From Rhodococcus oryzae (GTDB lineage: Bacteria > Actinomycetota > Actinomycetes > Mycobacteriales > Mycobacteriaceae): a DNA stretch of 64,000 nt. Position numbers and translations under genes: made by a program. The notes beneath the pieces were generated by a model that was given only the letters and a program-made list of their open reading frames with translations, was not told where the DNA came from and did not search any database. The stretch covers positions 1 to 64,000 of the forward strand of contig NZ_SUMD01000001.1 of the NCBI RefSeq assembly GCF_005049235.1, given 5' to 3'. Positions 5,035-61,537 of this stretch are shown in pieces (position 1 is the first letter of the stretch; every line of letters starts with the position of its first letter).

Positions 5035-5067
5035 CACCACTCCTCGAAGCGAACATCAGACTTGTAA

Positions 5068-7309: not shown

Positions 7310-7413
7310 GCCCGCCCCACCGCTTGGGGGCCTGTCCGCACCCTCCCCCTCCGACGAGACTTTGAGACCAGAGCAGTTCCCGGTCACCGAAGTCCGAGTC
7401 GAGGGAGAGTTTC

Positions 7414-8789: not shown

Positions 8790-11700
8790 TCAGAATACGC
8801 CCCCCACCGGCACATCGAGGTGCTCCGCCAGCACCGGACCGATCACCGCGACCGCCTCGGGCTCGATCATCTGATTGTGTTCGCAGTCCACCTCGATCTC
8901 CCGGAGCTCGCCGGTGATCGCCTGCCGCCATTCCTGGGCGGAGTGCCCACTCTCCGACCTCACCGCGGAGAAGAACAGCAGGTCGCCGTCGAAGAGAGCC
9001 GGGCTGAACCGGGACATGTTCTCAGCGGAATCGGCGAAGCCGTCGGCGATCCGCTCGAGGTGCGCCGCGGTCAGTCCCAGGTCCTGGCCCAGCGAATCGC
9101 CCAGCAGCTCGGCGGCGCGCTCGTAGGTCAGGCCGCCGTCGCCCGTTTCCTCGACCTCGAGGCCGAGGCCGGCGAGCAGGTCCTCGGCACTGAGCCGCGG
9201 TTGGACCGGCTCCCCGGCCACCGCGTAACTGTCCATGAGGGCGAGGGTCGCCACCTCATTGCCTGCGCCGCGCAGTTCGACCGCCATCGCGTGCGCCACA
9301 CACCCGCCCAGTGACCAGCCCAGCAGGTGGTACGGGCCCTGCGGCTGGATCGAGCGCAATTCCTCGACGTAGCGATGCGCGAGCTGCTCGACCGAATCGA
9401 AGTGCACGCCTTCGCTGATGGTCGGCAGCTGCAGTCCGTAAACGGGCCGGTCCGCGGCGAGCTGCGCGGCCAGGCCGGCATACCCCCAGGACAGACCGAT
9501 TCCGGGGTGCACGCAGAACAGCGGCGCCTTGCTACCGGTCGCGCGTAGGGAGATCACCACCGACAGCGCCTCCTCGAGGCCCGAGGCCCCGACCCCGGTG
9601 ACCTCACCGTCCAGGTCCGCGATGCGCCGGGCGAGACCTGCGGGTGTCGGATCGAAGAACATCAGTTGCAGCGGGATCCGCCTGCCGAGCCGCTCGTGCA
9701 GCTCCGCCATCACCCGGGTGGCGACCAGAGAATTCCCGCCGAGGTCGAAGAAGCTGTCGTCGACACCGACCCGCTCGAGGCCGAGGATCGCCTCGAAGGC
9801 GCCGACGACGGCCTCCTCGAGCGGATTGCCCGGCGCCCGGAATCCCTCCGCCCGCGCACCGAATTCGGGTGCGGGCAACGCATTTCGGTCGAGCTTTCCG
9901 ACCGGCGTCAACGGGACCTCGCTCAGCACGCGGATGGACGAGGGCACCATGTACGCGGGGAGGAACGCCGCCGCATGGGCCTTGACCTCCCCCGGCTCGA
10001 GGGTGACGCCCTCGTGTGGCAGCACGTACGACACCAGGACGGTGTCGCCGGTGGGACCGGCGTGCCCGATCGTGGTCGCGAAGCTGACCCCCTGGTGACC
10101 CATCAGCACGGCGTCGATCTCGCCCAGCTCGATCCGGAACCCGCGCACCTTGACCTGGAAGTCGCTGCGACCGAGGTAGTCGAGAGTGTGGTCGGGCAGC
10201 CATCGCACGAGATCCCCGGTCCGGTACATCCTCGACCCGTTCGGTGCGAACGGATTGGCCACGAATCGCTGTGCGGTCAGGCCTCCCTTGCCGTTGTAGC
10301 CGCGAGCGAGGGCGGGACCGAACACGTACAACTCGCCGGACACCCCCATCGGCACGGGCCGCAGCCGGGAGTCGAGCACCGCCACACCGAAACCGATTGC
10401 GGGCCCACCGATGTCCACCGGCTTCCCCGAGATCATCGGCCCGCCGACGGCCGCCTGCACCGTCGTCTCGGTGGGGCCGTACCCGTTGTACATCCGGCGT
10501 CCCGGCGCCCAGCGCGCGACGAGTTCCGGCGGGCATGCCTCCCCGGCGACGACGAGGACCTCCACGTCGTCGAGTCCGCGGTGGTCGATCGACGAGAGCG
10601 CGGTCGGGGTGACCAGCGCGTGGGTGACGCCCTCGTCGCGCAGCAGGTCGGCGAGCTCGGCGCCGCCGAAGACGGTGGGCGGGACGATCACCAGGCGCGC
10701 GGCCGCCCCGAACGCCATCAGCAGCTCGTACACCGACGCATCGAAACTGGGCGACGCCAGGTGCGAGACCCGCGACTCGTGCGTCACCTCGAAGAGCTCG
10801 CGCTCCTGCCGCGCGAGGTTCGCCAGCCCGCCGTGGGTGACAACGACGCCCTTGGGCACGCCGGTCGAGCCCGAGGTGTAGATCAGGTAGGCGGGGTGCA
10901 CGTGCCGCAGCGGGGAGATCCGGTCGTGGTCGGTCAGTGGCGCGGCCGAGTACCCCTGAACCCAGGCCTGCACCTCGGCCGCATCGAGCGCCAGCCACGG
11001 CACGAGGTCCGGCAGGTTCGCCCTGCTGCCGCTCGCCGTCAGGCCCAGCAGCGCCCCGGAATCGGTCAGCATGTGGCCGATTCGCATCGCGGGATGGTTC
11101 GGGTCCACCGGCACGAAGGCGGCGCCCGCCTTGGTCACGGCCCACACCGAGAGCACCGATTCGACGGATCTCGGCAGCCCGAGCGCCACCACGGACTCGG
11201 GTCCGACGCCCCGATCGACCAGGGCACGCGCCAACCGGTTCGAGCGCTCGTCCAGCTCGCGGTAGGTCATCGAGGATCCTCGGTAGGTCAGCGCCACCGA
11301 GTCGGGCCTGGCGGCCACCGAGTCGGCGAGCAACTCCGGCCAGGTCCGCGGCGGCTCGCCCGGCAGTCCCATCGCGGGCGCCAGCGCGGTCCGTTCCCTG
11401 CCGTCGAGGATCTCGATGTCACCGACCGGCCGGGCCGGGTCCATCGTGACGGACTCGAGGATGCGCAGGAACCGCTCGGCGAAGCCGCGCACCGTGCCGG
11501 GGTCGAACAGGTCCGTCGCGAAGTCGAAGCCTGCCGTCATCCCCGCGGGCGTGCCGTCGGCGCCGAACTCCTCGGACAGCAGCAGTTCCAGATCCTCCTT
11601 CGCCACGTTCACCTCGAGGTCGACGCCGGACACGGTCAGTCCGGGCAGTTCCAGCCGGGGACGGAGGTTGTTCTGGAACTCCAGCGACACCTGGAAGATC

Positions 11701-14700
11701 GGCGAGTAGGAGGTGGACCGGATCGGGTTGAGCGCCTCGACGATCCGCTCGAACGGGACGTCGGCATTACCGAACGCCGCCAGGTCGATCTCGCGCGCCC
11801 CGGCGAGCAGTTCGGTGAACGACGCGGCCCCGTCGACGCGGCTGCGGAGCACCAGCGTGTTGACGAACATCCCGACGAGGTCGTCGAGTTCCTCCTCCCC
11901 CCGGCCCGCGACCGGCGTGCCGATCGCGACGTCATCGGTGCCGCCGAGCCTGCTGAGCAGCACGGCCAGCGCGGCGTGGACGACCATGAACACGCTCGTG
12001 TTGTTCTCCCGCGCCAGTGCGACCAGCCGGCGGTGCAGGTCGGGTTCGACTGTGAAGTCGACCCGGTCGCCGTGGAAGGACTGCTGAACGGGCCGGGGCC
12101 GATCGGCCGGCAGCTGCAACACGTCGGGCAGTCCCGCCAGCGTCTCCGTCCAGAAGTCGAGCTGGCGCGACGCCAGGCTGCCCGGATCGTCCGTGGAGCC
12201 GAGCAGTTCATGCTGCCAGAGCGCGTAGTCGGCGTACTGGATCTCCAGCGGCGCCCAGTCCGGCGCTCGGCCGTCGATCCGGCAGGTGTATGCGGTCATC
12301 ACGTCGCGGGCCAACGGCGCCATCGAGAACCCGTCGGCGCAGATGTGGTGGACCACCATCGCAAGCACGTGCTCGTCCGGCGCCAGCCGGAACAGGGCGA
12401 TGCGGTGCGGGATGGCGGTGGTCACATCGAATCCGGTGGCCATGAAGCGGCCGAGGCGATCCGGCAGATCGGTCTCGTCGCCGAGATCGATGGGGGTGAG
12501 ATCGGGCACGACCCCGGTCACCGGATGGATCACCTGGCGCGGTCCCTCTGTCGACTCCGGGAAGGTGGTCCGCAACGACTCGTGCCGGGCCACGACATCG
12601 GCGAGCGCTGTCTGCAGCGCAGGCAGGTCGAGGTCGCCGGAGAGACGGACCGCGAGCGGGATGTTGTACGCGGCCGAGGACGGGTCGAACTGGTTGATGA
12701 ACCACATCCGCTGCTGGGCAAGGGAGAGCGGGATGTCCGCGGGGCGCGGTCCAGCGGTCAGCGCGGGCCGTGTGGTGCCGACCCCCGCGTGCCGCTCGAC
12801 ACGGTTGGCCAGCTCCCACACGGTGGGGGCCTCGAACAGCGCGCGCACACCGATCTCGGTGTGCAGCGCCGCATTCAGGCGGGCCATCACCCGGGTGGCG
12901 GTCAGCGAATTGCCGCCCAGATCGAAGAAGTTGTCGTCGAGGCCCGCGCGATCGCAACCGATGACCGCGGTGAAGACGTCCGCGACGGTCTCCTCGATCG
13001 GCGTCGTCGGGGCGCGGAACTCGGTGGTGGCGAAGACGAAGTCGGGTTCCGGCAACGCTTTTCGGTCGAGCTTGCCGACCGGGTTCAACGGGATCTCGTC
13101 GAGCACGGTGATCGCCGATGGCACCATGTGCGCGGGCAGCCGGCTCGCGAGGTGCTCGGTGAGCTCGCGGGTGGCCACCGGCGCGCCGCCTGCAGGCAGC
13201 ACGTACGAGACCAGCACGGTGTCGCCCGATCGTCCCGTGTGCCCGAGGGTCGCGGCGAAGGCGACGTCGGGATGATCGGTGAGCGCCGTGTCGATCTCGC
13301 CGAGCTCGACACGGAACCCGCGGACCTTGACCTGGAAGTCGCTGCGGCCCACATACTCGATCGCCAGGTCGCCGCTCTCGGTATCCCTCGTCCAGCGGAC
13401 GATGTCCCCGGTCCGGTACATCCGGGCGCCCGGCTCGAACGGGTTGGCCACGAAGCGGCCCGCGGTCAGCGCCGCCCGCCGGTGGTACCCGCGCGCCAGC
13501 CCGACGCCTGCGAGGTACAGCTCCCCCGCGACGCCGACCGGCACCGGTTGCAGCCTGGAGTCCAGCACCAACTCCGCGACGCCGCGGAGCGGACCGCCGA
13601 TGGTGATCGGCTCCCCCGAGGTCATCGCCGCGCTGATGTTCGACATGACGGTGGTCTCGGTCGGGCCGTACGCGTTGAACAGCCGGCGCCCCGGCGCCCA
13701 CCTCGCAACCAGGTCCGGCGGGCAGGCCTCGCCGCCGAAGACCACGAACTGGAAGTCGTCGAGGCCGGCGGGATCCATGGTGGAGAACGCCGCGGTGGTG
13801 ATGAACCCGTGCGTGACGCGTTCCGCCGCCAGCAGCCGGGTCAGCTCGACGCCGCCGTAGACGGTCGGCGGAACCACCACCATGGTCGCGCCCGCCCCAC
13901 AGGCCTGCAGGTATTCGTAGATCGACCCGTCGAAACTCGGCGACGAGAAGTGCAGTGTCCGCGACGCGGGCGTGGCGTGGAACCGCTCGGTCTGCATGGC
14001 CGCGAAGTTGTCGAGCCCGCGGTGGGTGACGACGACGCCCTTGGGCACGCCGGTCGACCCCGAGGTGTAGACGATGTACGCGGCGGAGTCGAGCGTGATC
14101 GGCGAGGTCCGGTCGGTGTCGGTCAGGTCCGCGCAGGAGGTTCCGGCACAGTCCGACTCGAACGCGGGGTCGTCGAGCGCGATCCAGTGCGCAGCGGCGG
14201 GGAGTCGATCCCGCTCGGCCGCCGTCGTCAGACCGAGGGTGGCGCCTGCGTCGGTGAGCATGTGCTCGATCCGCTCGGCCGGGTAGTTCGGGTCGACCGG
14301 CACGAAGGCGGCCCCGGTCTTGGCCACCGCCCAGACCCCGAGTACCGACTCCACCGATCGTGGGATGCCCAGCGCGACAAAGGTCTCCGGCCCGGCGCCC
14401 CGTGCGATCAGCTGTCGGGCGATCCGGTTCGAGCGCTCGTCGAGTTCGCGGTAGCTGACCTGCCTGCCCTGGAAGCTCAGCGCGATCGCCTCGGGGTCCG
14501 TCGCCGCGGCGTCCGAGAAGATCTGCGGCAGTGTGCGGATCGACCCGCCGGGGTGCCCGCGCACCGGTGCCAGCTCGCGGCGCTCGCGCTCGTCGAGCAC
14601 CTGTATCCGGGCCACCGGCAGGTCGAGGTCTAGGAGGTCGAGCACGCGCTCGACCCGCCGGGCGATGGACTCGACGCTGTCGCGGTCGAACAGATCGGGG

Positions 14701-17700
14701 AGGTACTCGAGCTTGAGGTGCATGCGGGAGTCGACGGATACGACGAGGCACAGCGGGTAGTGCGCGGAGTCCGAACCCTCCACGTCGACCACCCGCATGC
14801 CCGCGATGTCCGTCTCCTCGGACAGTCCGGAGCGGTCGACGGGGTAGGACTCGAACACGGCGAGCGTGTCGAAACCGAGCCCCTCCCCGACCGCGCGCTT
14901 GATCTCGGGCAGGCCCATGTAGTGGTGATCGAGCACGGCGGCCTGTTCGGTCTGGACCCGGTCCAGCAGTTCGCCGAGGGTCTCCCCCGGCACCAACCGG
15001 ACCCGCACCGGGATCGTGTTGATGAACAGCCCGATCATCGATTCGATCCCGGAGATCTGCGGCGGGCGGCCGGACACCGTTGCGCCGAAGACGATATCGT
15101 CGCGGCCGGTCATGGCGCCGAGCACGATGGCCCACACGGCCTGCACGACGGTGTTGAGAGTCAATCCGCGTTCGCGGGCCAACGCCCGCAGGCGGTCGGT
15201 CTGCTGCTCGGTGAGCGAGAGCTGCACCTCGTTCGAGACCGTGGACACCTCCCGGCCCGGATCGGCGGGGACGAGCAGGGTCGGATCGGTGACCCCGGCG
15301 AGGGCGGTCGTCCACGCCGCGGTGGACTCGGCGGCATCGCGCTCCGACAGCCATTCGAGGTAGTCGCGGTACGAGCGGACCCGCGGCAGGACCTCCGGGT
15401 CGCCGTCCGTCGCGTAGAGGACCAGCAGTTCGCGCAGCAGCAGCGGGGTGGACCAGCCGTCGAGCAGGACGTGGTGGTTGGTCATCACCAGGCGGTAGTG
15501 CTCCGGCGCCGTCCTGATCATCGTGAACCGCAGCAGTGGCGCCCGCGCCATGTCGAAGCTGGTGACCCGGTCCGCGGCGAGTCGCGCCGTCAGCTCGGCC
15601 TCGCGCACCACCGGATCCAGGGCCGAGAGGTCGACCTCGGTCCACGGCAGTGTCACCCGGTCCTGGATGACCTGTACCGACCGGCCCTCCTCGTCCTGGA
15701 CGAAGGCCGCCCGCAGGTTCGCGTGCCGGTCCAGCAGCGCCTGCCCCGCCCGGCGCATCCGCTGTGGGTCGACGGCACCGCGCAGTTCCAGCCCGAGCTG
15801 GACCAGATAGGAGTCGACGCTCTCGTCGGACAGCAAGGCGTGGAACAGCATTCCGGATTGGAGCGGCGACATCGACCAGACGTCGGTCAGGTCGGGGTAC
15901 CGGCTCTCGAGGCGATCGATCGCGGACTGGTCGAGGTCCACGAGGTCCAGGTCCGAGGGGGTCAGCCCGCCCGCGCGGGGACCGGCGGCGTGTGTCGCCA
16001 GTGCCCGGAGTGCGCGGATCCACATCGCCGCGACGTCCTCCACCTCGGCCACGGTGAGCACGCCGCCGGGGAACGACCACGTCGCCCGCAGCTGCGGACC
16101 GTTCTCGGTGGTCCTCGTCATGGCGTTGATGTCCAGTACCGCCGCGACCGGCATCTCCGGGTTGTGTGGGTCGCCCAGACCCGCGTAGTCGACCGGCAGC
16201 CATGCCGCCTCACCGGAACCGCCCGCTGTGGCCGTCGCGAACCGGCCCAGGTAGTTGAAGCTGACCTGCGGCACCGGCAGCTCCCGGAGCACGGCCGCCG
16301 ACGCGTCGTCGAGATACCTCAGCATGCCGAAACCGATGCCGTGGTCCGGGATCGCCAGCAGCTGCTCCTTGACTGCCTTCACCGCCGCGCCCGCCGCAGG
16401 CCCGCCCGCGAACGCATCGTCGAGATCAATGCCCGAGAGATCAAGGCGGACAGGGAATATCGTGGTGAACCAACCGAGGGTCCGGGCGAGGTCGGCGCCG
16501 GGAACGACCTGTTCCTCGCGACCGTGACCCTCGAGGTTGACCAGCGCACTGTCGGCCCACACTCCCCGCTCCCGCCGCCACCGGGTGATCGCCATCGCCA
16601 GCGCCGCGAGCAGCGCGTCGTTGACGCTGCCGTGGAACGCCTGCGGCAAGGAGGTCAGGACTGCCTCGGTCACGTCGGTCGGCACCGAGACCTGAACCTT
16701 CTGCACGGTCGCGTTGAGATCGAGGGCACGGTCCCGCGGCCTGCTGCCCAGCACCGGGTCCTCGCCCGCCAGCATCTCCCGCCACAGGTCCAGCTCCGCG
16801 ATGCGCTCCTCAAGGTGCACCGCCTCGGTCAGGCCGTGCGACCACCGCCGCAGGGATGTCCCGATCGGCGCGAGCACGGGCTCGGCACCGGAGGCGACCT
16901 GCGCCCAGGCGGCGGCCAGATCCGGGACCAGGATGCGCCAGGACACCCCGTCGATCGCGACGTGGTGCGCGAGCACCAGCAGCCGGCCCTGCCCCTCGGG
17001 CGGGTCGAACCAGACGGCCTGCAGCATGATCCCGGCCGCGGGGTCCAGCCGGTCGGCCGCCGCGTCCAGCTCGGCCGCGGCGATCGCGGTGAACTCCTCG
17101 CCCACCACGGACGGCACGGCGACCCGGCGGACCATCCGGTCCCCGTGCTCCGAGCCGACGGGCTGCACCTCCAGGAACCAGTCGCCCCGGTCCGACCGCA
17201 ACCGCGCGCGCAGCGCGTCGTGCTGGTCGACGACGGCCTGCACGGTCCGCCGCAACGAGATCTCGTCGATGTCGGGCGGCAGGGCCAGCACCGCCGCCTG
17301 TGCGTAGCGGTGGAACTCGCCGCCGCGTTCGAGCATCCAGCGCACGATCGGAGTGAGCGGAACCGTCCCGACGCCACCGTCCGGGAGCTCCTCCAGTACC
17401 GCGGCCCCGGCGGCCTCCGCGACGCGGGCCACCTCGGCGAGCGCGGCGACTGTCTTGCGCTCGAAGACATCCCGGGGCGTGATGACGACCCCGGCGGACT
17501 TCGCCCTCGCCACCAGCTGGATCGACATGATGCTGTCGCCGCCGAGCGCGAAGAACGAGTCATCGACGCCGACCGACTCGAGCCCGAGCGCCTCCGCGAA
17601 CAGTCCGGCCAGCACCCGTTCCGCCTCGCTGACCGGCGCCCGGCTCGCCGTCACCCGCGCCCCGAAGTCCGGCGCGGGCAGCGCCTTCCGGTCCAGCTTG

Positions 17701-20700
17701 CCGTTCGCGGTCAGCGGCAACTCGTCGAGGACCACCAGCGCGGCGGGCACCATGTGCGCGGCCAGCACCTCCGCCGCGAAATCGGAGGCGGCGCCGACGT
17801 CGAGGACCGTGCCCGCCTCCGGCACGAGGTACCCGACGAGGCGGACTCCACCGCTGCCGTCGTCGCGGGCCAGCACCACGGTCTGTGCGACGCCCGGGCA
17901 GCGCAGCAGCGCGGATTCGATCTCGCCGAGCTCGATCCGGAACCCGCGGACCTTCACCTGGAAGTCGCTGCGGCCCAAATACTCCAGCTCGCCATCGGTG
18001 TTCCACCTGGCCACGTCGCCGGACCGGTACATCCGCGCGCCGTCGGCACGGAACGGATCGGCCACGAAACGACCGGAGGTGAGCGCGGCCCGGCCGAGGT
18101 AGCCGCGGGCGGCCTGGGCACCCGAGACGTACATCTCGCCCGAGACGCCGGGCGGGACCGGGTGCAGTCGCTCGTCGAGCACGTACACCCGGAGGCCGGG
18201 CAGACCCCGGCCGATGACGGACGCGGACGCCTCGGCCGCGAACTCCCGGTCCAGGGGGATGTGGCTGACGTGCACCGTGGTCTCGGTGATGCCGTACATG
18301 TTGACCAGAGCGGGGGCCCGGTCGCTGTGTCTGCCGTACCAGCGGCCGAGCTGACCGAGGTCGAGCGCCTCGCCGCCGAAGATCACGTACCGCAGGCTGA
18401 GTCCGGCCGGGTCTCCGCGCTCCGCCGCCACCCGGTCGGCCTCGGCCAACTGGTAGAACGCGGTCGGCGTCTGGTTGAGCACCGTCACCCGCTCGCGCCG
18501 CAACAGCTCCAGGAACATCTCCGGCGCTCGGGCGGTGAAGTAGTCGACGACCACCAGCGTGCCGCCGTACACGAGCGGGCCCCACAGCTCCCACACCGAG
18601 AAATCGAAGGCGTAGGAGTGGAACATCGTCCACACGTCCGTGTGGTCGAATCCGAACCTGTCCTCGGTGTTGGCCATCAGTGTCGCCACGTTCCGATGCG
18701 AGACGACGACGCCCTTGGGCCTGCCGGTGGACCCCGAGGTGTAGATCACGTACGCCAACGACGCCGGTTCCAGCACAGCGCGACGATCCGCGTCGGTGAT
18801 CGGGGCGGAGGGCAGGGCGTCGAGCCGGCTGACGACCGCCGGCTCGTCGAGCCGGACGGTCGGGATCGCCGACCCGGGAACCGACTCGGCGTCGGCCACC
18901 GTGGTCAGGACGCACACGGGCCGTGAGTCCTCGAGCATGAACACAAGCCGTTCCGCGGGATAGGTCACGTCGACCGGCAGATAGCCGCCGCCCGCCTTGA
19001 TCACCGCGAGGAGCGCGACGACCAGCTCGGCGGAGCGCGGCATCGCCACGGCCACCAGGTCCTCCGGCCCCACGCCCAGGGAGATCAGGTGCCGCGCCAG
19101 GCGGTTGGCGCGGTCGTCGAGTTCCGCATAGGTCAGGGAGGTGTTCTCGTAGGTGACCGCGACGGCTCCGGGATGCTCCGCGGCGCTGCGCGCGAACAGG
19201 TCCGCGAGCGTGACAGAGGGGACGGCGACGCCCTCCTCGCCTACGAGCATCCGATCCCGCTCCGCGGGGTCCACGATGTCGATGTCGCCGATGGTGCGGT
19301 CCGGGTCGGCGGTGACCGCTTCGAGGATGCGCAGGTACCGCTGGGCGAAGGTCGCGGCGGTGCCCCGGTTGAAAAGGTCGGTGGCGAAGGTGAACCCGGC
19401 GCTCATGCCAGCGGGCTCGCCGTGGTCGTCGTGTCGTTCGCCGAGGGTGAGCTGCAGATCGAACTTCGACACGCCCAGGTCGTGGTCGACCGCGTCGACG
19501 GCGAGTCCGGGCAGCTCGAGGTGGGCGGACAGGTTGTTCTGGTACTCGATCAACACCTGGAACAGCGGCGAGTGGGCGGTGGAGCGTTCGGGCGCAAGCA
19601 CGTCGACCAGTCGCTCGAACGGCAGGTCCGCGTTCCCGAACGCCGCCAGGTCGGTCTCGCGAACCTGGGTCAGCAGGTCGGCGAAGGTCGCCGCCGCCTC
19701 GACGTCGCTGCGCAGGACGAGGGTGTTGACGAACATCCCGACCATGTCGTCGAGCTCCGCCTCGCCCCGTCCGGCGACCGGGGTGCCGATGGCGATGTCG
19801 GCGGTCCCGGACAGGCGGGCGAGCAGCACCGCGAGGGCGGCGTGCGCCACCATGAACATCGTCGAGTTGTGCTGCCGGGCAATCGTTGCCAGCTCCCGGT
19901 GGACACGCGGGCCGATGTCGAAATCGACCACCTCGCCGCGGAAGGAGCGGGCGAGCGGGCGCGGGCGGTCCGCCGGTAGCTGCAGCAGATCGGGCAGCCC
20001 GGCGAGGTTCGACGTCCAGTAGGCCAGTTGCTGGGAGATCACCGAGTCGGGGTCGTCCTCCGATCCGAGCAGTTCGTGCTGCCAGAGTGTGAAGTCGGCG
20101 TACTGCACGGCCAGCGGGGCCCACTCGGGTTCCCGCCCCTCCACCCGGGAGCTGTACGCGGTCATGACGTCTCGGGCCAACGGCGCCATCGAGAAGCCGT
20201 CCGCGGCGATGTGGTGCACGACGACCGTGAGGACGTGCTCGGCCTCACCGAGTTCGAAAAGGCCCGCGCGCAACGGGACCTCACGCGTGACATCGAATCC
20301 GGCCGAGACGAAGGAGGCGATCCGGTCCGCCAGGTCCGCCTCGGCCACCTCCACCGGAACCAGATCCGGCCCGGCCTCCGCGGCGTCCACGATCCGCTGG
20401 ACCGGCTGCCCGTCGATGGTCGGGAACTCGGTGCGCAGCGACTCGTGCCTGGTCAGCACGTCGCGGATCGCGGCGCGCAGGGCGACCACGTCCAGGCGGC
20501 CGGTGAGCCGGATGGCGAGGGGGATGTTGTACGCCGACGAGGCGGTGTCGAACTGGTTGATGAACCACATCCGCTGCTGCGCCAGCGAGAGCGGGATGCG
20601 GTCGGGGCGAGGGACCGGACGCAGCACGGGGCGGTCCCGCCGGTCGGCGGTGTGGTGCTCGATGGAGGTCGCCAGGCGGTGCACGGTGGGCGCCTCGAAC

Positions 20701-23700: not shown

Positions 23701-26700
23701 ACCGACCGATCCGACAGCAGCGCGTGGAACAGCAGACCCTTCTGCAGCGGGGCCATCGTCCACACGTCGGTCAGGTCCGGGTACCGGATCTCGAGCCGGT
23801 CGATCGCGGCCTGGTCCAGCGACACCAATCCGAGGTCCGAGGGCGTCAGGCCACCCGCTCCGGGGGATTGGGCGTACCCGGCGAGCGCCGTGAGCGCCGT
23901 GACCCACAGCTCGGCGAGCTCCTCGACCTCGTCCTCGGCGAGCACTCCGGTGGGGAACGCCCAGGTGGCCCGCAGCTGGGGGCCTGCGGCGGTCGTCGCG
24001 GTCACCGCGTTGACGTCGACGGCCGCCGCGACGGGCAGCCGAGGATCCGTGACGCCGCCGAGGTCCCCCGCGTCCTCGACCGGAAGCCAGGCGGTGTCAC
24101 CGTGATCGGATGTGGCCGTGGCGAACCGGCCGAGGTAGTTGAAGCTGATCTGGGGTGTGGCCAGCTCGCCGAGCACCGAGGAGGCGGCGTGGTCGAGGTG
24201 GCGCAGCATCCCGTACCCGATGCCGTGGTCCGGGATCGCCAGCAGTTGCTCCTTCACGGACTTGATCGCCGCACCGGCGGCCGGTCCGCCTGCGAACGCG
24301 TCGTCGAGGTCGATGCCGGACAGGTCGAGGCGCACCGGGAACACCGCGGTGAACCAGCCGACCGTGCGGGTCAGGTCCGCGCCCGGCACCACCTGCGCCT
24401 CACGACCGTGGCCCTCGAGGGTGACGAGCGCGCCGTTCGCGCGCACGCCCCTGTTCTGACGCCACCGGGTCAACGCCAGAGCCAGGGCGGTGAGCAGGCC
24501 GTCGTTCACGCTGCCGTGGAACGCCGAAGGCAGCGCGGTGAGCACCGCCTCGGTCACCGCGGGCGGGAGCTCGATCTCGACCCTGGCCACCGTGGCATTG
24601 ACGTCGACGGCCGGATCGAGCGGCCGCGACCCGAGCAGCGGGTCCGGTTCGGCGAGCATCCGGGTCCAGGTGTCCAGCTCATCGGAGCGGTCGCGCGCGG
24701 CGTCGACCAGCGCGTGCGCCCAGCGGCGCATCGAGGTACCGACGGCGGCGAGGTCCGGCCGCTCGCCCGCCTCCAGCTGTGCCCATGCGGTCGCGAGGTC
24801 GGGTATCAGGACCCGCCAGGACACCCCGTCCACCACGAGGTGATGCGCGACCACGAGCAGCCGTCCGACCCCGGCGGGGGTCTCGAACCACACCGCCTGC
24901 ACCATGTTCCCCACGGAAGGGTCGAGTCGGCCCTGTGTCTGCGCGAGGGTGTCTGCCACCACGGCCGCGAACTCCTGGCCGGTGACCGCGTCGACCGGGA
25001 TCCGGCGCAGCACTGTCTCCGACGACACCGATCCGGTCGGCAGTACCTCGAGCCCCCAGCCTCCTGGCCCGCCGTGCAATCGGGAACGGAGCATGTCGTG
25101 GCGGTCCAGCACCGCTTGCAACGCGCGTTCGAGCACGTCGCGGTCCATGCCAGGCGGGAGTGTGAGCAGCACGGACTGGGAGTAGCGGTCGAAGTCGCCC
25201 CCGCGATCGAGCAGCCAGCGCACGATCGGCGTGAGCGGGACCTCGCCCACCCCGCCGCCGGGGAGCTCGTCGAGGGCCGGCACCTCGGCCGTCTCGCCGA
25301 CCACTGCCACCTCGGCGAGCGCGGCGACGGTCTTGTGCTCGAAGACATCCCGCGGCGACAGGAACACCCCGGCGGTCTTGGCCCGCGAGACCAGCTGGAT
25401 CGACATGATGCTGTCGCCGCCAAGGGCGAAGAAGGAATCGTCGACGCCGATCGACTCCACCCCGAGCACCTCGGCGAACAGCTCGGCCAGCAGGCGTTCG
25501 GTCTCGGTGACCGGAGCCCGGCTCTCGGTCGTGCGGGCGCCGAAGTCGGGCGCGGGCAGCACCTTCCGATCGATCTTGCCCGCGGGCGTCAGCGGCAGCT
25601 CGTCGAGCATCACCAGCGCGGCAGGCACCATGTGCGGCGCCAGCACCTCCCCGACCGAGGCCAGGATCTCCGTGGCAGCGAGCTCGGCGCCCTCCTCGGG
25701 CACCACGTAGCCGACCAGTCGCCCGACGCCGCGGCCGTCATCCCGGACGGTGGCTACCGCGTCGGCCACCCCCGCGCAGCCCCGCAAGGCGGATTCGACC
25801 TCGCCGAGTTCGATCCGGAATCCGCGAACCTTGACCTGGAAGTCGCTGCGGCCCAGGTAGGCCAGTTGGCCGTCGGGACGCCAGCGGACCACGTCGCCGG
25901 TGCGGTACATCCGGGATCCGGGGTCACCGAAGGGATTCGCCAGGAACCGGTCCGCGGTCGCCCTCGCCCTGCGGTGGTACCCGCGGGCAAGCCCGGGTCC
26001 CATGACATAGAGCTCACCCGCGACACCCACCGGAACCGGGTGCAGGCGCTCGTCGAGGACCGCAACGCCGCACCCGACCGGGGGCCGCCCGATCGCGACC
26101 GCCGTGCCAGGGACCATCGGGTCGCTGACGGCGGCGACGACGGTGGCCTCGGTCGGGCCGTAGGCGTTGAACATCGTCACAGCGGCCCACTGGCGCACCA
26201 GTTCCGGCGGGCAGGTGTCGCCACCGGTCACCACGCACTCGAGGGCATCGAGCCCGGCCGGGTCAACGGAGGCCAGCGCGGCGGGGGTGACGAAGGCGTG
26301 GGTGACCCGCTCGCGGGCGAGCAGTTCGGCCAGTTCCGCGCCGCCGTAGATGGTGGGCGGCGCGATCACCATCGCGGCACCCGCGCCGAAGGCCAGCAGC
26401 AACTCCAGCACGGATGCGTCGAAGCTCGGCGAGGAGAAGTGCAGTGTCCGCGCGGACGGGCCGACGCCGAACCGGATTCGCTCGTCGGCAGCGAAGTTCG
26501 CGAGGCCGCGGTGCGTCAGCACCACGCCCTTGGGGACCCCGGTCGAGCCGGAGGTGTAGATCAGGTAGGCGGGGTGCCCGAGCAGCAGCGGCGCACGCCG
26601 GTCGGCGTCGGTGACCGCCGTTCCCGGCTGCCCGTCGATCTCGGCGGCGAATCCCGGGTCGTCGAGGACCAGCCACTCCGTCGTGTCCGGTAGGTGCGTA

Positions 26701-29700
26701 CGCGACCGCGAGACCGTGAGTCCCAGCGCGGTCCCGGAATCGGTCAGCATGTGCTCGATGCGCTCGGCCGGATAGCTCGGATCCACCGGCACATAGGCGG
26801 CCCCCGCTTTCGCCACGGCCCACACCGACAGCACCGACTCGATCGACCGCGCCATCCCGAGCGCCACGATCGATTCCGGGCCGACGTCCCGGCCGATGAG
26901 CACCCGCGCCAACCTGTTCGCGCGTTCGTCCAGCTCGCGGTACGTCAGACTGTTGCCCTCGCATATCACCGCGACGGCATCGGGATCGCTGGCGGCGGCG
27001 TCCGAGAGCAATTCGGGCAGGGTGCGCGGCGCCGCCCCTGCGGGTCCGGTGACCGGCGTCAGCGACCGGCGCTCGCTCGGATCGAGCAGCTCGATGTCCC
27101 CCACCGCGATCGACGGATCTGCGGTCGCGGTCTCGAGGACCCGGACGAACCGCGCGGCGAGGCCGTCGATCGTCGCCGCGTCGAAGAGGTCGGTGGCGAA
27201 GGTGAACGCGGCCGCCACCCCCGCGGGGGCGCCGTCCCCGTCATAGCGCTCGTCGAGGGTCAGCTGCAGATCGAAGTTCGCTGTGACGGAATCGAGTTCG
27301 ACGGGCTCGATGACGAGCCCTGGCAGCTCCAGCCGCGCCCGTTCGGTGTTCTTGAACTCGAGCATCACCTGGAACAACGGGGAGTGCGCGGTCGACCGTT
27401 GCGGGGCCAGGACGTCCACCAGGCGCTCGAACGGGAGGTCGGCGTGACCGAACGCGCCGAGATCCGTCTCGCGCACGGAGTCGAGCAACTCGGCGAAGGT
27501 GGTCGAGCGATCGACGCGGGTGCGCAGGACGAGGGTGTTGACGAACATGCCGACGAGGTCGTCGAGTGCGGCCTCGCCGCGGCCTGCGATCGGCGTGCCG
27601 ACCGCGACATCGTCGGTGTCCGCCAGTCTGCTCAGCAGCACAGCCAGGACGGCGTGCATCGCCATGAACACGCTCGAGCTGCGCTCCCTCGCGGTCGCGA
27701 CGAGCCTGCGATGGGTATCGGCGTCGATCGAGAACTCCACCCGGTCGCCGCGCAGCGAGCGTTCCGCGGGCCGCTGCCGGTCGACCGGCAGGGCCAGCGC
27801 CTCGGGCAGGCCGGACAGTGTCCGCGTCCAGTAGTCCAGCTGCCGCGCGATCAGGGACTCGGGGTCATCCTCGGAGCCGAGCATCTCGCGCTGCCAGAGT
27901 GCGTAGTCGGCATACTGCACCGGCAGCGGTGCCCACTGCGGTGACTCGCCCGCCATCCGGGAGCTGTACGCCGCCATGACATCCCGGGCCAGCGGGACCA
28001 GCGAGAAGCCGTCGGCCGAGATGTGGTGGACGACGACGACCAGGACGTGCTCGGTCTCGCTCAGTCCGAACAGCGCCGCCCGCAGCGGAGCCCACGCGGT
28101 CACGTCGAAGCCGGCGGCGACGAACCGGGCGAGTTCCCCTGACATCGCTTCCGGTGGCACCGCGATCGGTGACAGGTCCCCCACCACGTCGTCGGCGTCG
28201 ACGATCACCTGCATGGGTTCCCCGTCGACGAGCGGGAACATCGTGCGCAGTGCCTCGTGCCGGTCGACGACGTCGAGGATCGCCTTGGCCATGGCGTCCG
28301 CGTCGAGCGCACCGGAGAGCCGGACCGGCAGTGCCACGTTGTAGGCGGCGGAGGACGTGTCGAACTGGTTCATGAACCACATCCGTCGCTGCGCGAGCGA
28401 GACGGACACCCGCGGCGCACGAGCGGCCGCCAGCAACGCGGGGCGCGGAACCGCCCGTGAACTCTCGGTCTCGGCGCACACGGCGAGCGCGGCCACCGTC
28501 GGGGAGTCGAAGAGTTCGCGCACCCCGATCCGGGTGTCGACCGCCGCGTTCACCCTGGCCACCAGCCTGGTTGCCACCAGCGAGTTCCCACCGAGGTCGA
28601 AGAAGTTGTCGTACACGCCGATCCGGCCGAGGCCGAGCAGGTCCCCGAAGATCGACGCGATGATCTCCTCGATCGGGTTCCGCGGCGCCACGAACTCGGA
28701 GGTCTTGGCCGCGAACACCGGTTCCGGCAGCGCGGAACGGTTGAGCTTGCCGGTCGAACCGAGGGGGAATTCCTCCAGCACCATCAGCTGCGCGGGAACC
28801 ATGTAGCCGGGCAGCCGCGAGGCGACGCCCTCGAGCACGCCGTCGGTGTCGATCTCCTGGCCGCGCTCGGCGACCAGGTAGCCGATCAGCGAGTCGCCCG
28901 TGAGCGCGTCGCTGTGCATCGTCACCGCCGCCTGCGCCACCGCCGGGTGTTCGAGCAATGCCAGCTCGATCTCGGACAGCTCGATGCGCAGGCCCCGCAG
29001 CTTGACCTGGAAGTCGGTGCGGCCGATGTACTCGATGTTCCCGGTCTCGTTCCACCGCACCAGGTCACCGGTGCGGTACATCCGCTCACCCGGTGCGAAG
29101 GGATCCGCCACGAAACGGTCCGCGGTGAGGTCCGCGCGACCGACGTAGCCGCGCGCCAGCTGGACACCGCTCAGATACAGCTCGCCCGCGACACCGACCG
29201 GGACCGGGTTCAACCGGCCGTCGAGCACGTACACCCGGGTGTTCCACACCGGCGCGCCGATGGGCACGACCACCTCGTCCGCGGCGCTGCACGCCCAGTG
29301 CGTCACGTCGACCGAGGCCTCGGTAGGCCCGTACAGGTTGTGCAGTTCCGCGACGCTGAACTCACGGAACGCCTCGGCCGCCGACGGCGCGAGCGCCTCG
29401 CCGCTGCAGAACACCCGGCGTAGCGACCGGCATCGGGCCGGATGCGCGCCCGCGGTGAAGGTCGACAGCATCGAGGGCACGAAGTGGATCGTGGTGACCC
29501 GCTCGCTCTCGATCAGCCGCGACAGGTAGTCCGGATCCCGGTGACCGTCCGGGGCGGCGACCACCAGCCGGGCACCGGTCTGCAGCGGCCAGAAGAACTC
29601 CCACACCGAGACGTCGAAAGTGGCCGGGGTCTTCTGCACCACCACGTCCTCGGAGGTGAGGGGGTACCGGTGCTGCATCCACGACAACCTGTTGGCGATC

Positions 29701-32700
29701 CCGGCGTGCGTGACCGCGACGCCCTTCGGCCTGCCGGTCGAGCCCGAGGTGTAGATCACGTACGCGACGTCGTCGGGGCGCAGGCAGCCGAGCCGGTCGG
29801 CGTCCACGATCGGCGACGGGTCCTGCGCGCCGAGGTCGAGCCGGTCGATCTCCAACGCCTGCAACGACTCCGGGAGTGCGCCGCGATCGGCGTGGGTGGT
29901 GAGCACGCACACCGGCCGGGCGCTGCCCAGCACGTACTCGGTCCGGTCCGCCGGATGATCGGGATCGATCGGCACGTAGGCGCCGCCCGCCTTGACCACC
30001 GCGTACATGCCGATCACCAGCTCCAGGGAGCGGCGCATGGCGAGGCCGACGGTCGACTCCGGTCCGACCCCCAGCGAGATCAGGTGACGGGCCAGCCGAT
30101 TGGCCGCAGCGTCGAGTTCGGCGTAGGTCAGCCGGTCCTCCCCGAACACGAGGGCGACCGCGTCGGGCGTGCGTGCGACCTGTGCATCGAAGAGGTTGCC
30201 GAGGGTGGTCGCGGGCAACTCCTGCTCGGTGGCGTTCCACTCGGTCAGCACCTGCGAACGCTCGCTCCCGGCGAGGAGGTCGACATCACCGACCGTCACC
30301 GCGACGTCCTCGGTGACCGATTCGAGCACCCGGACGAAACGCTGCGCGAACCGGCGGACGCTCGGCGCGTCGAACAGGTCGGTGGCGTAGGAGAACGCCG
30401 CCTTGATCCGGCCGGGCGCGCCCTGGTCGTCATAGGTCTCGGTCAGGGTGAGCTGCAGGTCGAACTTGGCGGTTCCGTTGTCCAGCGCCTCGACGTCCAC
30501 GATCAGGTCGGGTAGTTCGAGTCTCGTGTGGCCGGTGTTCTGGAGCACCAACAGCACCTGGAACAGCGGGGAGTAGGCGGTGGATCGCGTCGGGTTGAGC
30601 ACCTCCACAACCCGCTCGAACGGGACGTCGGTGTGACCGAACGCGTTCAGGTCCACCGTGCGGGTCTGCCTGACCATCTCCGAGAAGGTCATCCCGGCAT
30701 CGACGGGTGTGCGGAGCACCAGCGTGTTGACGAACATGCCGACCAGGTCGTCGAGCGCGGCCTCACCCCTGCCCGCGATCGGCGTCCCGATGGAGATGTC
30801 GGATGACCCGCTCAGCCGCGCCAGCAGCACCGCCAAGGCGGAGTGCAGCACCATGAACAGGCTCGAATCCATCTGCCCTGCACGCGAGATCAGCTTGTTG
30901 TGCAGCTCGGCGGGGATCGTGAACTCCTCGACCGCGCCCCGGAACGACTGCTCGGGCGGGCGCGGATGATCTGTGGGCAGCTCGAGCACGTCGGGGGCGC
31001 CCGACAGCGCCCTCGTCCAGTAGTCGAGCTGGCGAGCGATCAGGCTGCCGGGGTCGTGTTCGTCACCGAGCAGCTCGCGCTGCCACAGGGAGTAATCCGC
31101 GTACTGCACCTCGAGCGGAGCCCAGTCCGGGGCGCCGCCGAGCCTGCGGGAGTTGTACGCGGTCATGACGTCCCGCGCCAGCGGTGCCATGGAGAAGCCG
31201 TCGGCGGCGATGTGGTGCACGACCAGGACCAATACGTGTTCGGTCGGTCCGAGGCGAAGCAGCTCGGTCCGCACCGGGAACTCGGTGGTGACATCGAAGC
31301 CGGTCGACGCCAGCCCGGTGACCATGTCGCGCAGACCGGTCTCGGACACGGGCACGGGCGTGAGGTCCGGCACCACCTCGGAGGCGGGCCGGATCAGCTG
31401 GAAGGGACCGTCGGGAGAGTCGGGGAAGAGGGTGCGCAGCGACTCGTGCCGTTCGACGACATCTGCCAGCGCCCTGGCCAACGCGTCGGGGTCCAGTTCA
31501 CCAGCGAGCCGCACGGCGATCGGGATGTTGTACGCGGCCGAGGACGGATCGAACCGGTTGATGAACCACATCCGTTGCTGCGCGAGGGATACCGGGATAC
31601 GGTCCGGCCGCTCCCCCGCCACCAGCACGGGCCGGTCCGAGTCCCGCCGACCGATCGAGTCGATCCGCGCGGCAAGCGTCTCGACCGTCGGCGCCTCGAA
31701 CAGATCCAGCACCCCGATGTCGCTGTCGAGGACGGCGTTGATGCGCGCGACGACCCGGGTCGCGATCAGTGAGTTGCCACCGAGGTCGAAGAAGCTGTCC
31801 CTTGTGCTGATCCGCTCGACGCTGAGAACCGTCGCGAAGACTCCGGCGACCGCCTCTTCGCTGTGGGTTTCCGGGGCCAGGAACTCGGCGGTCGAGGTGA
31901 CGAAGTCCGGTGCGGGCAGTGCTTTCCTGTCGAACTTCCCCGCGGGCGTCATCGGGATCTCGTCGAGCAGGACGATGCTGGACGGCACCATGTGCCCCGG
32001 CAGCCGGGCAGCCAGATGCGCGGTCAGCTCGGCGGCGGCGATCGCGGCGTCGTTGGTCGGGTGCACGTACGACACCAGCACGGTGTCCCCGAACGGGCCG
32101 GGGTGGCCGACGGTGGCGGCGAAGCTGACGTCGGGGTGGGTGGTCAGGGTGGCGTCGATCTCGCCGAGCTCGATCCGGAAGCCTCTGATCTTCACCTGGA
32201 AGTCGCTTCGTCCGAGGTACTCGAGGGTGTAGCCACTCCCGTCGTCGGTCCTGGTCCAGCGCGCGAGGTCCCCCGTTCGGTACATCCGGGTGCCGGGCCC
32301 ACCGAACGGGCTGGCCACGAAGCGATCCGCCGTGGGGACCGGCCGCCTGTGATAGCCACGGGCGAGACCGGTGCCGGTGACATAGAGCTCACCGGGCACC
32401 CCCGCGGGCACCGGGTGCAGCCTGCCGTCGAGCACCACCTCACCGCACCCGAGCGGCGGCCTGCCGATGGTGACCTGTTCACCGGGGGTCATCCGGTGGC
32501 TGATCGACGAGACGATCGTCGTCTCGGTCGGTCCGTACGCGTTGAACATCCGATGGCCGGGCGCCCACTGCTGCACCAGTTCCGGCGGGCAGGTGTCGCC
32601 GCCGGTGACGAGGCACTCGATGTCATCGAGGCCGGCTGGGTCCACGGAGGCCAGCGCGGCCGGGGTGACGAAGGCATGGGTGACCCGGCGTCGGCCGAGT

Positions 32701-35564
32701 AGTTCGGCCAGTTCCGCGCCGCCGTACACGCTCGGCGGGGCGACCACCATCGTCGCGCCCGCGCCGAAGGCCATCAGCAGTTCGAGGACGGAGGCGTCGA
32801 AACTCGGCGACGAGAAGTGCAGGGTTCGCGACGCCGGGGTCACGGCGAAACGGTCGCGCTCCTCGGCCGCGAGGCTGGCGAGGCCGCGGTGGCTCAGCAC
32901 CACGCCCTTGGGCACACCCGTCGAGCCCGAGGTGTAGATCAGGTAGGCCGGGTGCGTGAGCAGCAGCGCGGCGCGACGGTCCTCGTCCGTCACCTGCGCC
33001 GGGGAGTAGCGCTCGAGTTCTGCCTCCAGGTCGGGTGCGTCGAGGACCAGCCACGGCACCGCGTCGGGAAGTCGATTCCTGCGTTCGTCCACGGTCAGGC
33101 CGAGGGCGGCACCGGAATCGGTGAGCATGTGCTCGATGCGCTCGGCCGGATAGTTCGGGTCGACCGGCACGAACGCGGCGCCTGCCTTGGCCACCGCCCA
33201 CACCGACAGTACGGACTCGACGGACCGGGCCATCCCCAGCGCCACAATCGATTCCGGGCCCGCTCCCCGATCGATCAACAGCCGAGCCAGCCGATTCGAG
33301 CGCTCGTCGAGTTCGCGGTACGTCAGGCTCACGTCCTGGAACACGAGCGCCGCCGAATCGGGGTCGATGTGCGCGGCGTCGGCGAACAGCTCCGGCAACG
33401 TCCGCGGCGGCGCCTCCGGGCCCCCGAACACCGGTGCCAGGGCCTCGCGTTCCTCGGGGTCGAGTAGTTCGATGTCCCCCACCGCGATCGACGGGTCCGC
33501 GGTCGCGGCATCGAGTATCCGGATGAACCGGGTCGCGAAGCGCTCGACCGTCCCCGGATCGAACAGGTCGGTGGCGTAGGTGAACGCGGCCGACATGCCA
33601 GCAAGGGCGCCGTCCGCGTCGTGCCGCTCGGCGATGGTCAGGCACAGATCCACCTCGCCTGCGATACCGTCGGCATCGGCATATTCGACTGTGAGCCCTG
33701 GCAGTTCGAGATGTGGTCGCCGCGCATTGCGCACCTCGAGCAGCACCTGGACCAGGGGCGCGTAGGCCGTCGAGCGGACCGGACAGACCGTCTCGACGAG
33801 ACGCTCGAAGGACTGCTCGGCGTGGTTGAAGGCGCTGAGCTCGCCGAGGCACGCCTCGTGCAGGAGTTTGCCGAACGAGTCGCCGCCGTCGACCCGCGTG
33901 CGCAGGACGACCGTGTTGTCGGAGGGTTCGACGGTGCCGTCCACGGTCGCGGCGTGAACCGTGACCTGGGTGCCGATGGCCACGTCGTCGGTGTCGCCGA
34001 GCCTGCTCAGCAGCACCCCCAACGCCGCGTGCACCGCGGTGAACACACTCGAGCTCCGGTCCCGGGTCAGCGCGATCAACCGCTCCTGGAGATCGACGCC
34101 GATGTCGAACTCCACACGATGGCGTCGGTCCGACAGCACAATCGGGCGGGGTCGATCCGCAGGCAGCGTCAGCACCTCGGGTATCCCCGAGAGGACTCGC
34201 GACCAGTGCGCCAGCAGCGACGCGGCCTTGTGCTTGCGCCCGGCCATCCGGAAGCTCCGCGCGTGGATCTCCATCAGCCTGGTATCGGGATCGGCCGCGA
34301 CGAACCCCTCGAGCATCTCGACGAAGGCGTGGTGCCGCGAGCGCAGGTCGTCGTCCTCGTAGAGGTTCGGATTGCCCCGGAAGTCGATGACGGTGCTCGG
34401 CGGGCTGCCGCTCTGATAGATGTTGACCAGCAGGTCATCGACCGGGCCCGAGGTCATGATGCGGTTCTCGCCGACGACGGGGCCGAGCGTGACCTGTTGG
34501 CTGAACAGCATCACGTTGACCATCGGCGCATGCAGGGAGCGTTCGCCGCTGCGCCCGGCGTCCCTGCGGATGTCCTCGAGGCTGCAACGCTGATGCCGCA
34601 GCGCACCCATCAACTCGAGGTTGACCCGCTGCACCAGTTCGGCGACGGTGTCGCCCGGCCGCACGCTCAGCCGCAGCGGCACCACATTGACCAGCATCCC
34701 GCCAGATCGGTGCAGAACCGAGGTGGTCCGCGCCGAGACGGGGATGTTGACCAGGACGTCCTCGGTACCGGTCATCTGGGACAGGTAGCAGGCGAATCCC
34801 GCGATCACCACGGCCGCCGACGTCGCGCCGCGCCGGAGGTCGGAATCCTCGAGCAGCCGGACGGCGTCCTCGGTCAGGGGCGCGCTCGCGAGCCGGCTAC
34901 GGGCGGCGGCGGGCGCCACCTCCGTCACCAGGCTCGAGCCCTCCTCGATTCCACGGATCCGATCGGCCCAGAACTTGCGGTCCGACTCGAACCGGCTGGA
35001 TGTCCGGTACTTCGCGTCGAGCTCGTACAGATCCGTCAGCGGAGAGCATTTGGCCGGACCGGCGTCCCCGCCCTCCACCGCGGCGGTGTACAGCGCGGCG
35101 ATCCGGTTCATCACGGTCGCGCCGCCGTAGCCGTCGAGGGCGACGTGGTGAATTCGGCTGTACCAGAGGTAGTCCCGGTCGCCGACCTGCAGGATGGTGA
35201 TGTCGAACAGGCGGTCGTTCGAGAGGTTCACCGGGGTCGCATAGTCCCGGTGCATCCACTCCTCGGCCGCCGCGGCCGGATCGTCCTCGCCCCGGAAGTC
35301 CACGAAGCCGAGCGGTAGGCCGATGGATTCGTCGACGAGCTGGAACGGTTCACCGTCGACCTCGATCACCCGGAGATAGGGCGACTGGAACTCGTGTGCC
35401 GCGGTCTTCGCCGCCTGGTGAAGCACCTCGAAATCGAGGTCCCCGTGCAACTCGACGTACTGGGCGATGGTGATCGGGACCGTCGGGGTGAGCTGCTGGG
35501 CGAACCACATGGCTCGTTGCGCGGCGGAGAGGGGGAACGCTCCGGCTGGAATGTTGGTAGCCAC
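8790..35564 (-). CDS. Seven-module non-ribosomal peptide synthetase (humimycin-type, acyl-heptapeptide)
   Basis: A single 8924-residue NRPS. Domain order: C1 (1-430), C-lobe-only half C (~440-707), A1, T1; C2-A2-T2; C3-A3-T3-E3; C4-A4-T4; C5-A5-T5-E5; C6-A6-T6; C7-A7-T7-TE. A2 has the textbook Ser code and A5 the textbook Thr code; E domains after modules 3 and 5 give D-residues there. C4 and C6, which follow E domains, look like D-L-type C domains (HHxLLDGWS). The TE nucleophile is Ser 8751. The layout matches my recollection of the humimycin synthetases (3-hydroxymyristoyl-Phe-Ser-D-Tyr-Tyr-D-Thr-Phe-Val, from Rhodococcus, acting on the lipid II flippase). The start is GTG at 35564 with AAAGGGG upstream, 12 bases after the S74-like gene. 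No MbtH-like gene, fatty acyl-AMP ligase or phosphopantetheinyl transferase is nearby. Confidence 0.95.
8793..9590 (-). other. NRPS terminal type I thioesterase
   Basis: About 265 residues of alpha/beta-hydrolase thioesterase. The nucleophile elbow is G-W-S-L-G-G with Ser 8751, followed by an Asp in L-M-D-S-Y and a C-terminal His near residue 8896 (C-E-H-N-Q). The N-terminal segment H-P-G-I-G-L-S-W resembles the EntF thioesterase. It would release the finished peptide, by hydrolysis if the product is linear. Confidence 0.88.
9610..12780 (-). other. NRPS module 7: C7, A7, T7
   Basis: C7 (~7601-8054) has HHICADG. A7 (~8061-8568) gives D-A-Y-L-V-A-G-V-Q-K, unlike the other modules and not a code I can assign; valine would fit a humimycin-type product. 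T7 carries the phosphopantetheine serine at residue 8612 (L-G-G-N-S-L). Confidence 0.82.
12790..15940 (-). other. NRPS module 6: C6 (D-L type), A6, T6
   Basis: C6 (~6545-6998) has [10 protein letters not shown], as expected after an epimerase. A6 (~7005-7511) reads D-G-Y-F-V-G-A-V-M-K. The conserved Pro after the fourth code position is replaced by Thr (F-I-T-T-A-A). This is not a code I can assign; an aromatic residue is plausible from its similarity to A1, A3 and A4. T6 has L-G-G-N-S-L. Confidence 0.82.
15950..20640 (-). other. NRPS module 5: C5, A5 (threonine), T5, epimerase
   Basis: C5 (~4985-5435, HHIAADG), A5 (~5441-5968), T5 with G-G-D-S-I and E5 (~6061-6538). The A5 code is D-F-W-N-I-G-M-V-H-K, the standard threonine code, read from D-F-S-V-W, N-Q-T-P, I-F-G-G and [11 protein letters not shown]5 is closely similar to E3 over its whole length. 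Position 5 should be D-Thr (or D-allo-Thr). Confidence 0.9.
20660..23840 (-). other. NRPS module 4: C4 (D-L type), A4, T4
   Basis: C4 (~3915-4375) has [10 protein letters not shown], a form found in C domains that take a D-residue from the upstream T-E pair. A4 (~4378-4888) reads D-A-L-F-V-G-A-V-A-K, close to A1 and A3. T4 has L-G-G-N-S-L. No epimerase, so the residue stays L. Confidence 0.85.
23850..28460 (-). other. NRPS module 3: C3, A3, T3, epimerase
   Basis: C3 (~2378-2831), A3 (~2838-3335), T3 and E3 (~3428-3902). The A3 code D-A-L-F-V-G-A-V-V-K differs from A1 in one position, so again probably an aromatic residue. T3 has G-G-D-S-I, the variant that precedes E domains. E3 has HHLVVDG, E-G-H-G-R-E and T-V-G-W-F-T, all typical of active epimerases, so position 3 should be D-configured. 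Confidence 0.85.
28480..31650 (-). other. NRPS module 2: C2, A2 (serine), T2
   Basis: C2 (~1318-1771) has HHIAADG and the features of an L-L type domain. A2 (~1778-2281) gives the code D-V-W-H-F-S-L-V-D-K, identical to the serine code of EntF, read from D-V-S-V-W, H-F-V-P-S, F-C-S-G and [11 protein letters not shown]2 has L-G-G-N-S-L and no E domain follows, so L-Ser is incorporated. Confidence 0.9.
31680..35564 (-). other. NRPS loading and module 1: C1, half C, A1, T1
   Basis: C1 (residues 1-430) has an intact HHVALDG motif (139-145) and, being at the N terminus, probably adds the acyl group. It is followed by a second, incomplete C domain (~440-707) consisting only of the C-terminal lobe, without HHxxxDG. 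A1 spans ~716-1221; its ten-residue code reads D-A-L-F-V-G-A-I-V-K. It is near-identical to the codes of A3 and A4 and probably prefers an aromatic residue; Phe would fit a humimycin. T1 has L-G-G-N-S-L. Confidence 0.82.
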
Positions 35565-53543: not shown

Positions 53544-53551
53544 CTGCCTCC

Positions 53552-54403: not shown

Positions 54404-54407
54404 CGCG

Positions 54408-55175: not shown

Positions 55176-55199
55176 GAGCCCTCCCTCGTCGTGTGCCTG

Positions 55200-56471: not shown

Positions 56472-56491
56472 GGCAGGCCTTTCAGGCAGGG

Positions 56492-58150: not shown

Positions 58151-58174
58151 GCGAGTCCTTCCAGCGTTGGGCGC

Positions 58175-59979: not shown

Positions 59980-61533
<1,554 letters not shown>

Positions 61534-61537
<4 letters not shown>

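Follow-up and report, generated by a model that had tools for sequence, protein, structure and literature searches.

A seven-module lipoheptapeptide synthetase of Rhodococcus oryzae, very probably a sister line to the humimycin synthetases

Introduction

We analysed 64,000 nucleotides of Rhodococcus oryzae (NZ_SUMD01000001.1, positions 1 to 64,000; here called the window), at the start of contig 1 of its 5.37-Mb, 31-contig genome. The window carries an intact nonribosomal peptide synthetase (NRPS) in a single gene on the reverse strand. The gene very probably encodes a lipoheptapeptide synthetase, all in one protein, that falls within the humimycin-type family but in a sister line, and is not the humimycin synthetase itself. 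An earlier account made from the letters alone (the sequence-only reading) had taken it for a humimycin synthetase. Instead, the tree, an approximately unbiased (AU) test and the flanking genes place another synthetase of this genome, C26:342116-369121 (C26a), with the presumed humimycin A synthetase IupU of Prescottella (Rhodococcus) equi.

Results and discussion

Domain layout of the synthetase

The gene starts with GTG at 35564, ends with a stop at 8790 and encodes 8,924 amino acids (aa) without an internal stop, exactly at the coordinates proposed earlier. Searches with PF00668, TIGR01720 and motifs found a starter condensation (C) domain, seven adenylation (A) and seven thiolation (T) domains, C2 to C7, epimerisation (E) domains after modules 3 and 5, and one thioesterase (TE). 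PF00668 matched the starter C, a C-lobe only, C2 to C7 and the two E domains, and TIGR01720 matched after modules 3 and 5 only. The motifs number seven for A, seven for T, nine HHxxxDG, two EGHGR and one GWSLGG. With h for HHxxxDG, their order is h A h A h A h E h A h A h E h A h A TE. The seven modules, the two epimerases and the N-terminal C domain of the sequence-only reading are thus confirmed.

The domains are listed below. A-domain codes were taken from alignment columns, and the tenth letter, Lys, was appended and not read. Modules 2 to 7 rest on PF00668, the alignment code and motifs, and the E domains on PF00668, TIGR01720 and motifs.

8790..35564, reverse strand: seven-module NRPS, single gene (profile and motif searches)
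34262..35564, reverse strand: starter (acyl-transferring) C, active-site HHVALDG (PF00668 match 34494-35540; starter-C matches in the PDB)
33400..34261, reverse strand: vestigial C, C-lobe only, without HHxxxDG (PF00668 match 33438-34229, profile positions 190-455 only)
31602..33399, reverse strand: A1-T1, code DALFVGAIVK (bounds are the gaps between C matches and approximate)
28410..31601, reverse strand: C2-A2-T2, code DVWHFSLVDK (Ser-type)
25242..28409, reverse strand: C3-A3-T3, code DALFVGAVVK
23793..25241, reverse strand: E of module 3, HHLVVDG and EGHGRE intact
20601..23762, reverse strand: C4-A4-T4, code DALFVGAVAK; C4 follows an E domain
17367..20600, reverse strand: C5-A5-T5, code DFWNIGMVHK (Thr-type)
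15909..17366, reverse strand: E of module 5, HHVAIDG and EGHGRE intact
12738..15881, reverse strand: C6-A6-T6, code DGYFVGAVMK
9560..12737, reverse strand: C7-A7-T7, code DAYLVAGVQK
8790..9559, reverse strand: terminal TE, GWSLGG (motif; start approximate)

The codes read from the alignment agree with those described before, with a Ser-type code at 2, a Thr-type code at 5 and three codes that hardly differ at 1, 3 and 4. We take codes 2 and 5 to be the exact Ser and Thr codes of the published tables.

The layout is common to a whole family

The starter C, seven modules, E domains at 3 and 5 and one TE in one protein, together with Ser-type and Thr-type codes at 2 and 5, put the synthetase in the humimycin-type family in the broad sense. 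We compared 22 full-length synthetases, the window included and three of them from this genome, and a single motif order was found in all 22. They were chosen by an open frame near 8.9 kb and by similarity to the window N-terminus, so the agreement in layout arises partly by selection. Further genome-scan matches stand outside this set. The T-domain pattern finds seven T domains in 11 of the synthetases, six in nine and five in two. The C19 synthetase of R. erythropolis (6,341 aa, five A domains in the assembly) entered the identity comparison and the full-length tree and stands outside the count of 22; in the C7a region of R. tukisamuensis an additional 4,123-aa antisense frame was dropped.

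The sequence-only reading held that such a match in length and D-positions is hard to get by chance. It is indeed not chance, but since the layout is common to all 22 and to the cluster type known as NRPS-5, it does not single out humimycin.

Four lines are seen in the family: a humimycin clade of 12 rows, which includes C26a; the NRPS-5 type; a type whose second code is Thr-like and to which C26:397643-424636 (C26b) of this genome belongs; and the window together with contig 31 of R. maanshanensis. C26a and C26b share the window's layout and are 62.4% and 55.8% identical to it, and C26b differs by its Thr-like code DFWCIGMVHK at 2. They lie no more than about 30 kb apart, so that with the window this genome holds three synthetases of the same layout. 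Its condensation-family matches number 77, a large NRPS load.

The nearest named relative found is the orthologue in R. maanshanensis NBRC 100610 (NZ_BCXA01000031), 93.6% identical over the full length, with the same immediate neighbours and all seven codes without difference. A scan of named genome contigs over the N-terminus gave 92% for R. maanshanensis and 56% or less for all others. Copies above 56% identity were found only in this genome and one other among 301 genomes at a cut-off of E 1e-225, which 27 passed; three candidates were scored per genome, the genomes were drawn from a larger family, and weaker relatives fall below the cut-off. Our literature search found nothing on nonribosomal synthesis in R. 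maanshanensis; the available part of one paper reports a polyketide from a related strain, in text that lacks the word humimycin (PMC6310278).

The window synthetase lies outside the humimycin clade

PMC5550956 names R. equi IupU as the synthetase of humimycin A and lets a R. erythropolis synthetase stand for humimycin B; iupU is REQ23810 in PMC2947987. We took the P. equi DSM 20307 synthetase (NZ_LWTX01000004, G009:C4:265288-292089) as IupU and that on C5 of R. erythropolis NBRC 15567 (G019:C5) as the humimycin B candidate. In trees of the whole proteins, the window synthetase and its counterpart in R. maanshanensis fell, with support 100, outside the 12-member clade in which both presumed humimycin synthetases, that of R. 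equi and that of R. erythropolis, are found and in which a humimycin A or B synthetase proper would be expected. The AU test, run on 17 of the 23 rows, rejected joining the window to R. equi and P. agglutinans (p-AU 0.00013) or to the C26a pair (p-AU 8.2e-6).

The flanking genes agree with the tree. Among 22 other regions (about 5-6 kb per side of the relatives), those of the window matched R. maanshanensis only, except for a 25-26% acyl-CoA-ligase match to other synthetases. The presumed IupU is flanked by genes for an N-acyltransferase, MbtH, AurF and a chorismate enzyme, unlike the window, where the N-acyltransferase, AurF and chorismate-binding genes are absent. Compared with the R. equi N-acyltransferase and chorismate-binding genes, this genome matches best at C26:338445-340229 and C26:373517-375574 (71% each), which bracket C26a, and AurF also lies beside C26a. 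C26a is likely the humimycin synthetase orthologue of this genome.

Humimycin clusters contain an amidohydrolase, an N-acyltransferase and MbtH, according to PMC5550956. We found no MbtH gene near the window, and the two of this genome, on C13 and C29, are near neither the window nor C26a. An MbtH gene directly adjoins the synthetase in P. equi, P. agglutinans and P. defluvii. Since C26a and R. erythropolis C5 also have none nearby, MbtH alone is not decisive and marks the Prescottella loci among those tested.

It is improbable, then, that the window gene is the organism's humimycin synthetase, an IupU orthologue with a slightly changed product. That view would account for the shared layout, an identity of 63.7%, the Ser-type and Thr-type codes at 2 and 5, the single-position difference from R. 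equi in each of codes 1, 3 and 5, and the fact that the nearest rows by tree path after R. maanshanensis belong to the humimycin clade. It is opposed by the tree and the AU test, by the R. equi flank genes lying beside C26a and, less decisively, by the missing MbtH. Aligning the window to the NRPSs of R. equi and R. erythropolis, as the sequence-only reading had proposed, gave 63.7% and 55.8% identity and the same layout, and the window still stands outside their clade. Its other proposal, that a different residue at 2 or 5 would speak against it, could not separate the lines because Ser-2 and Thr-5 type codes are also present in the NRPS-5 type.

Several points weigh against placing the window in a sister line. 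Identity to the R. equi synthetase does not discriminate (63.7% for the window, 64.6% for C26a). The trees were quick, with support from the Shimodaira-Hasegawa-like approximate likelihood ratio test (SH-aLRT) only, and midpoint-rooted, so that the word sister depends on the root; the position outside the 12-row clade does not. Unusual residue composition was flagged in 15 of the 23 proteins in the full-length tree and in 10 of the 17 in the AU test. In a tree of 84 A domains from 12 of the 23 synthetases, A1 and A4 of the window stand apart from the domains of the same position. With codes 1, 3 and 5 each a single position off R. equi, the peptide made might hardly differ from humimycin A. 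IupU itself was assigned by inference and not by locus tag: of two matches with E <1e-140 it is the one that spans the C-lobe remnant, has the right layout and adjoins the MbtH gene just upstream (264864-265016), followed by an apolipoprotein N-acyltransferase gene.

The mce block and NRPS-5

A block of mce, MlaE, P450 and acyl-CoA-ligase genes lies at 46652-63557, 11 kb from the synthetase. PMC5550956 describes NRPS-5 as equal in layout, different in the substrates at 1, 3, 4, 6 and 7, and accompanied by an mce operon and a long-chain acyl-CoA ligase. We took the R. erythropolis NBRC 15567 synthetase on C19 (G019:C19) as NRPS-5 because it lies near such a block, which left C5 for humimycin B, and R. 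qingshengii G018:C22 as its counterpart. The full-length R. qingshengii synthetase has the layout of the window, and the block genes are 71-93% identical to those beside NRPS-5 in both species.

This resemblance would fit the window carrying the cluster that Ceniceros et al. 2017 call NRPS-5, with its mce operon and ligase alongside, yet we regard that as hardly credible. In NRPS-5-type synthetases the code is Ser-type at 4 as well as at 2 and reads DAFTDVG at 7; they form a clade of their own, and their block sits on the other side of the synthetase. We rejected this identity for the window on the codes and the clade. The block was likewise rejected as part of the cluster and taken as core genome. 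Its P450 is present in 16 of 18 genomes, and the block is near a family synthetase in five of the 16; in the remaining 11 the synthetases listed lie on different contigs or more than 600 kb away, where, with draft contigs, nearness is possible.

Modules 2 and 4 of the R. qingshengii synthetase have identical A-domain segments. In the A-domain tree, NRPS-5-type A domains from module 4 fall together with those from module 2, which points to a copy of A2 in module 4.

Starter C domain and the remnant behind it

HHxxxDG of the starter C is intact, and the RzmA starter C and C1 of the CDA synthetase were among its best PDB matches, in sequence and in fold, as expected of a lipoinitiating domain. 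The fold searches bear on the starter C alone, as the parts beyond residue 448 are barely covered. From its likeness to the starters of RzmA and the CDA synthetase it can soundly be inferred that residue 1 is acylated.

The sequence-only reading had overlooked a partial second C domain (about 33400-34261) straight after the starter C. This C-lobe shares 55% identity with that of C3 and 54% with that of C7, has helices and strands in a predicted structure model and is also seen behind the starter C in the family members aligned. Relaxed selection on it is not clear, since its ratio of nonsynonymous to synonymous changes (dN/dS) against R. maanshanensis, 0.185, is close to that of C3, 0.188 (other domains 0.088-0.188). 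It may be what was left when a starter domain became fused ahead of an older C domain.

Predicted product

Judged by the domains and codes, the best reading of the product is an N-acyl heptapeptide resembling humimycin. The starter C would acylate the module-1 residue, presumably from a fatty acyl-CoA, to judge by starter domains of known structure. Modules 1 to 3 would then supply an aromatic-type residue, Ser, and an aromatic-type residue turned to D; modules 4 and 5 a third residue with a similar code and a Thr turned to D; and modules 6 and 7 two more residues. The TE would release the chain, either linear or as a ring. Any antibacterial action of the product is likewise a prediction.

Codes 1, 3 and 4 (DALFVGAIVK, DALFVGAVVK and DALFVGAVAK) are near-identical, and by the nearest known codes we expect residues 1, 3 and perhaps 4 to be Tyr-like. 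Of the ten letters of each code, the tenth of them assumed, 9, 10, 9, 7, 9, 7 and 6 match R. equi from module 1 to module 7. The changes are concentrated at 4, 6 and 7, with three to four of the nine positions each, and at codes 6 and 7 the third position is Phe in R. equi and Tyr in the window. The product is thus probably altered against humimycin at these three residues, and the earlier suggestion of a possible new congener stands. The R. erythropolis C5 synthetase also has Ser-2 and Thr-5 type codes.

Humimycin A is Tyr-Ser-D-Tyr-Phe-D-Thr-Val-Val in Table 1 of PMC12024397, which contradicts the Phe-Ser-D-Tyr-Tyr-D-Thr-Phe-Val given in the sequence-only reading. With a 3-hydroxymyristoyl group, the linear peptide Tyr-Ser-Tyr-Phe-Thr-Val-Val has a calculated neutral mass of 1103.615, and its Tyr-4 variant one of 1119.610. 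Humimycin B carries Tyr and Ile substitutions there, in columns that the text table leaves unclear. That the published humimycins were synthesised from predicted sequences, as the sequence-only reading had said, is stated in PMC5550956 and PMC12024397. Because the humimycin residues were themselves predicted from synthetase sequence, equating code and residue is partly circular.

Neighbouring genes and possible modification

Three genes near the synthetase are tied to it by position only:

7411..8724, forward strand: stand-alone condensation-like protein with the degenerate active site HQVALDA for HHxxxDG (PF00668 on open reading frame 7414-8724)
5997..7265, forward strand: short-chain dehydrogenase/reductase (SDR) oxidoreductase (domain at residues 151-345 of the frame; true start further in)
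3601..5040, reverse strand: efflux transporter of the DHA2/EmrB-type major facilitator superfamily (MFS), a candidate exporter (97% identical in R. maanshanensis)

The condensation-like protein is 89% identical in R. maanshanensis and 40% identical to the starter domain of the NRPS, and the SDR is also conserved there.

The product could also be cyclic or further modified by the SDR and the condensation-like protein, and act as a surfactant, a signal or an iron-related compound rather than as a MurJ inhibitor. This is compatible with a sister line, and we hold it to be a serious possibility, though we lean somewhat away from it. Ring closure via the TE is conceivable through Ser, through Thr or through a possible beta-hydroxyl, deletion of iupU affects growth of R. 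equi at low iron (PMC5550956), and the published humimycins come from synthesis. No direct evidence for this was found in the present sequence, and PMC12024397 reports that synthetic linear humimycins are active and need the C-terminal acid.

Meaning for the family

The preferred reading, a sister line within the humimycin-type family, would put three parallel lines (the window, C26a and C26b) in one genome. Speculatively, they could be a natural combinatorial set of humimycin-like MurJ inhibitors, with the window product an active new congener that differs at 4, 6 and 7. Common descent, the fixed D-3 and D-5, the Thr-like code at 5 and side chains that differ elsewhere are what such a set, which we consider rather unlikely, would build on.

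A sister line, in only two genomes here, that shares a genome with a likely humimycin orthologue allows a direct comparison of what the layout says, and fails to say, about the product. It also cautions that module count and D-positions do not name a product, and the window codes supply a further predicted sequence.
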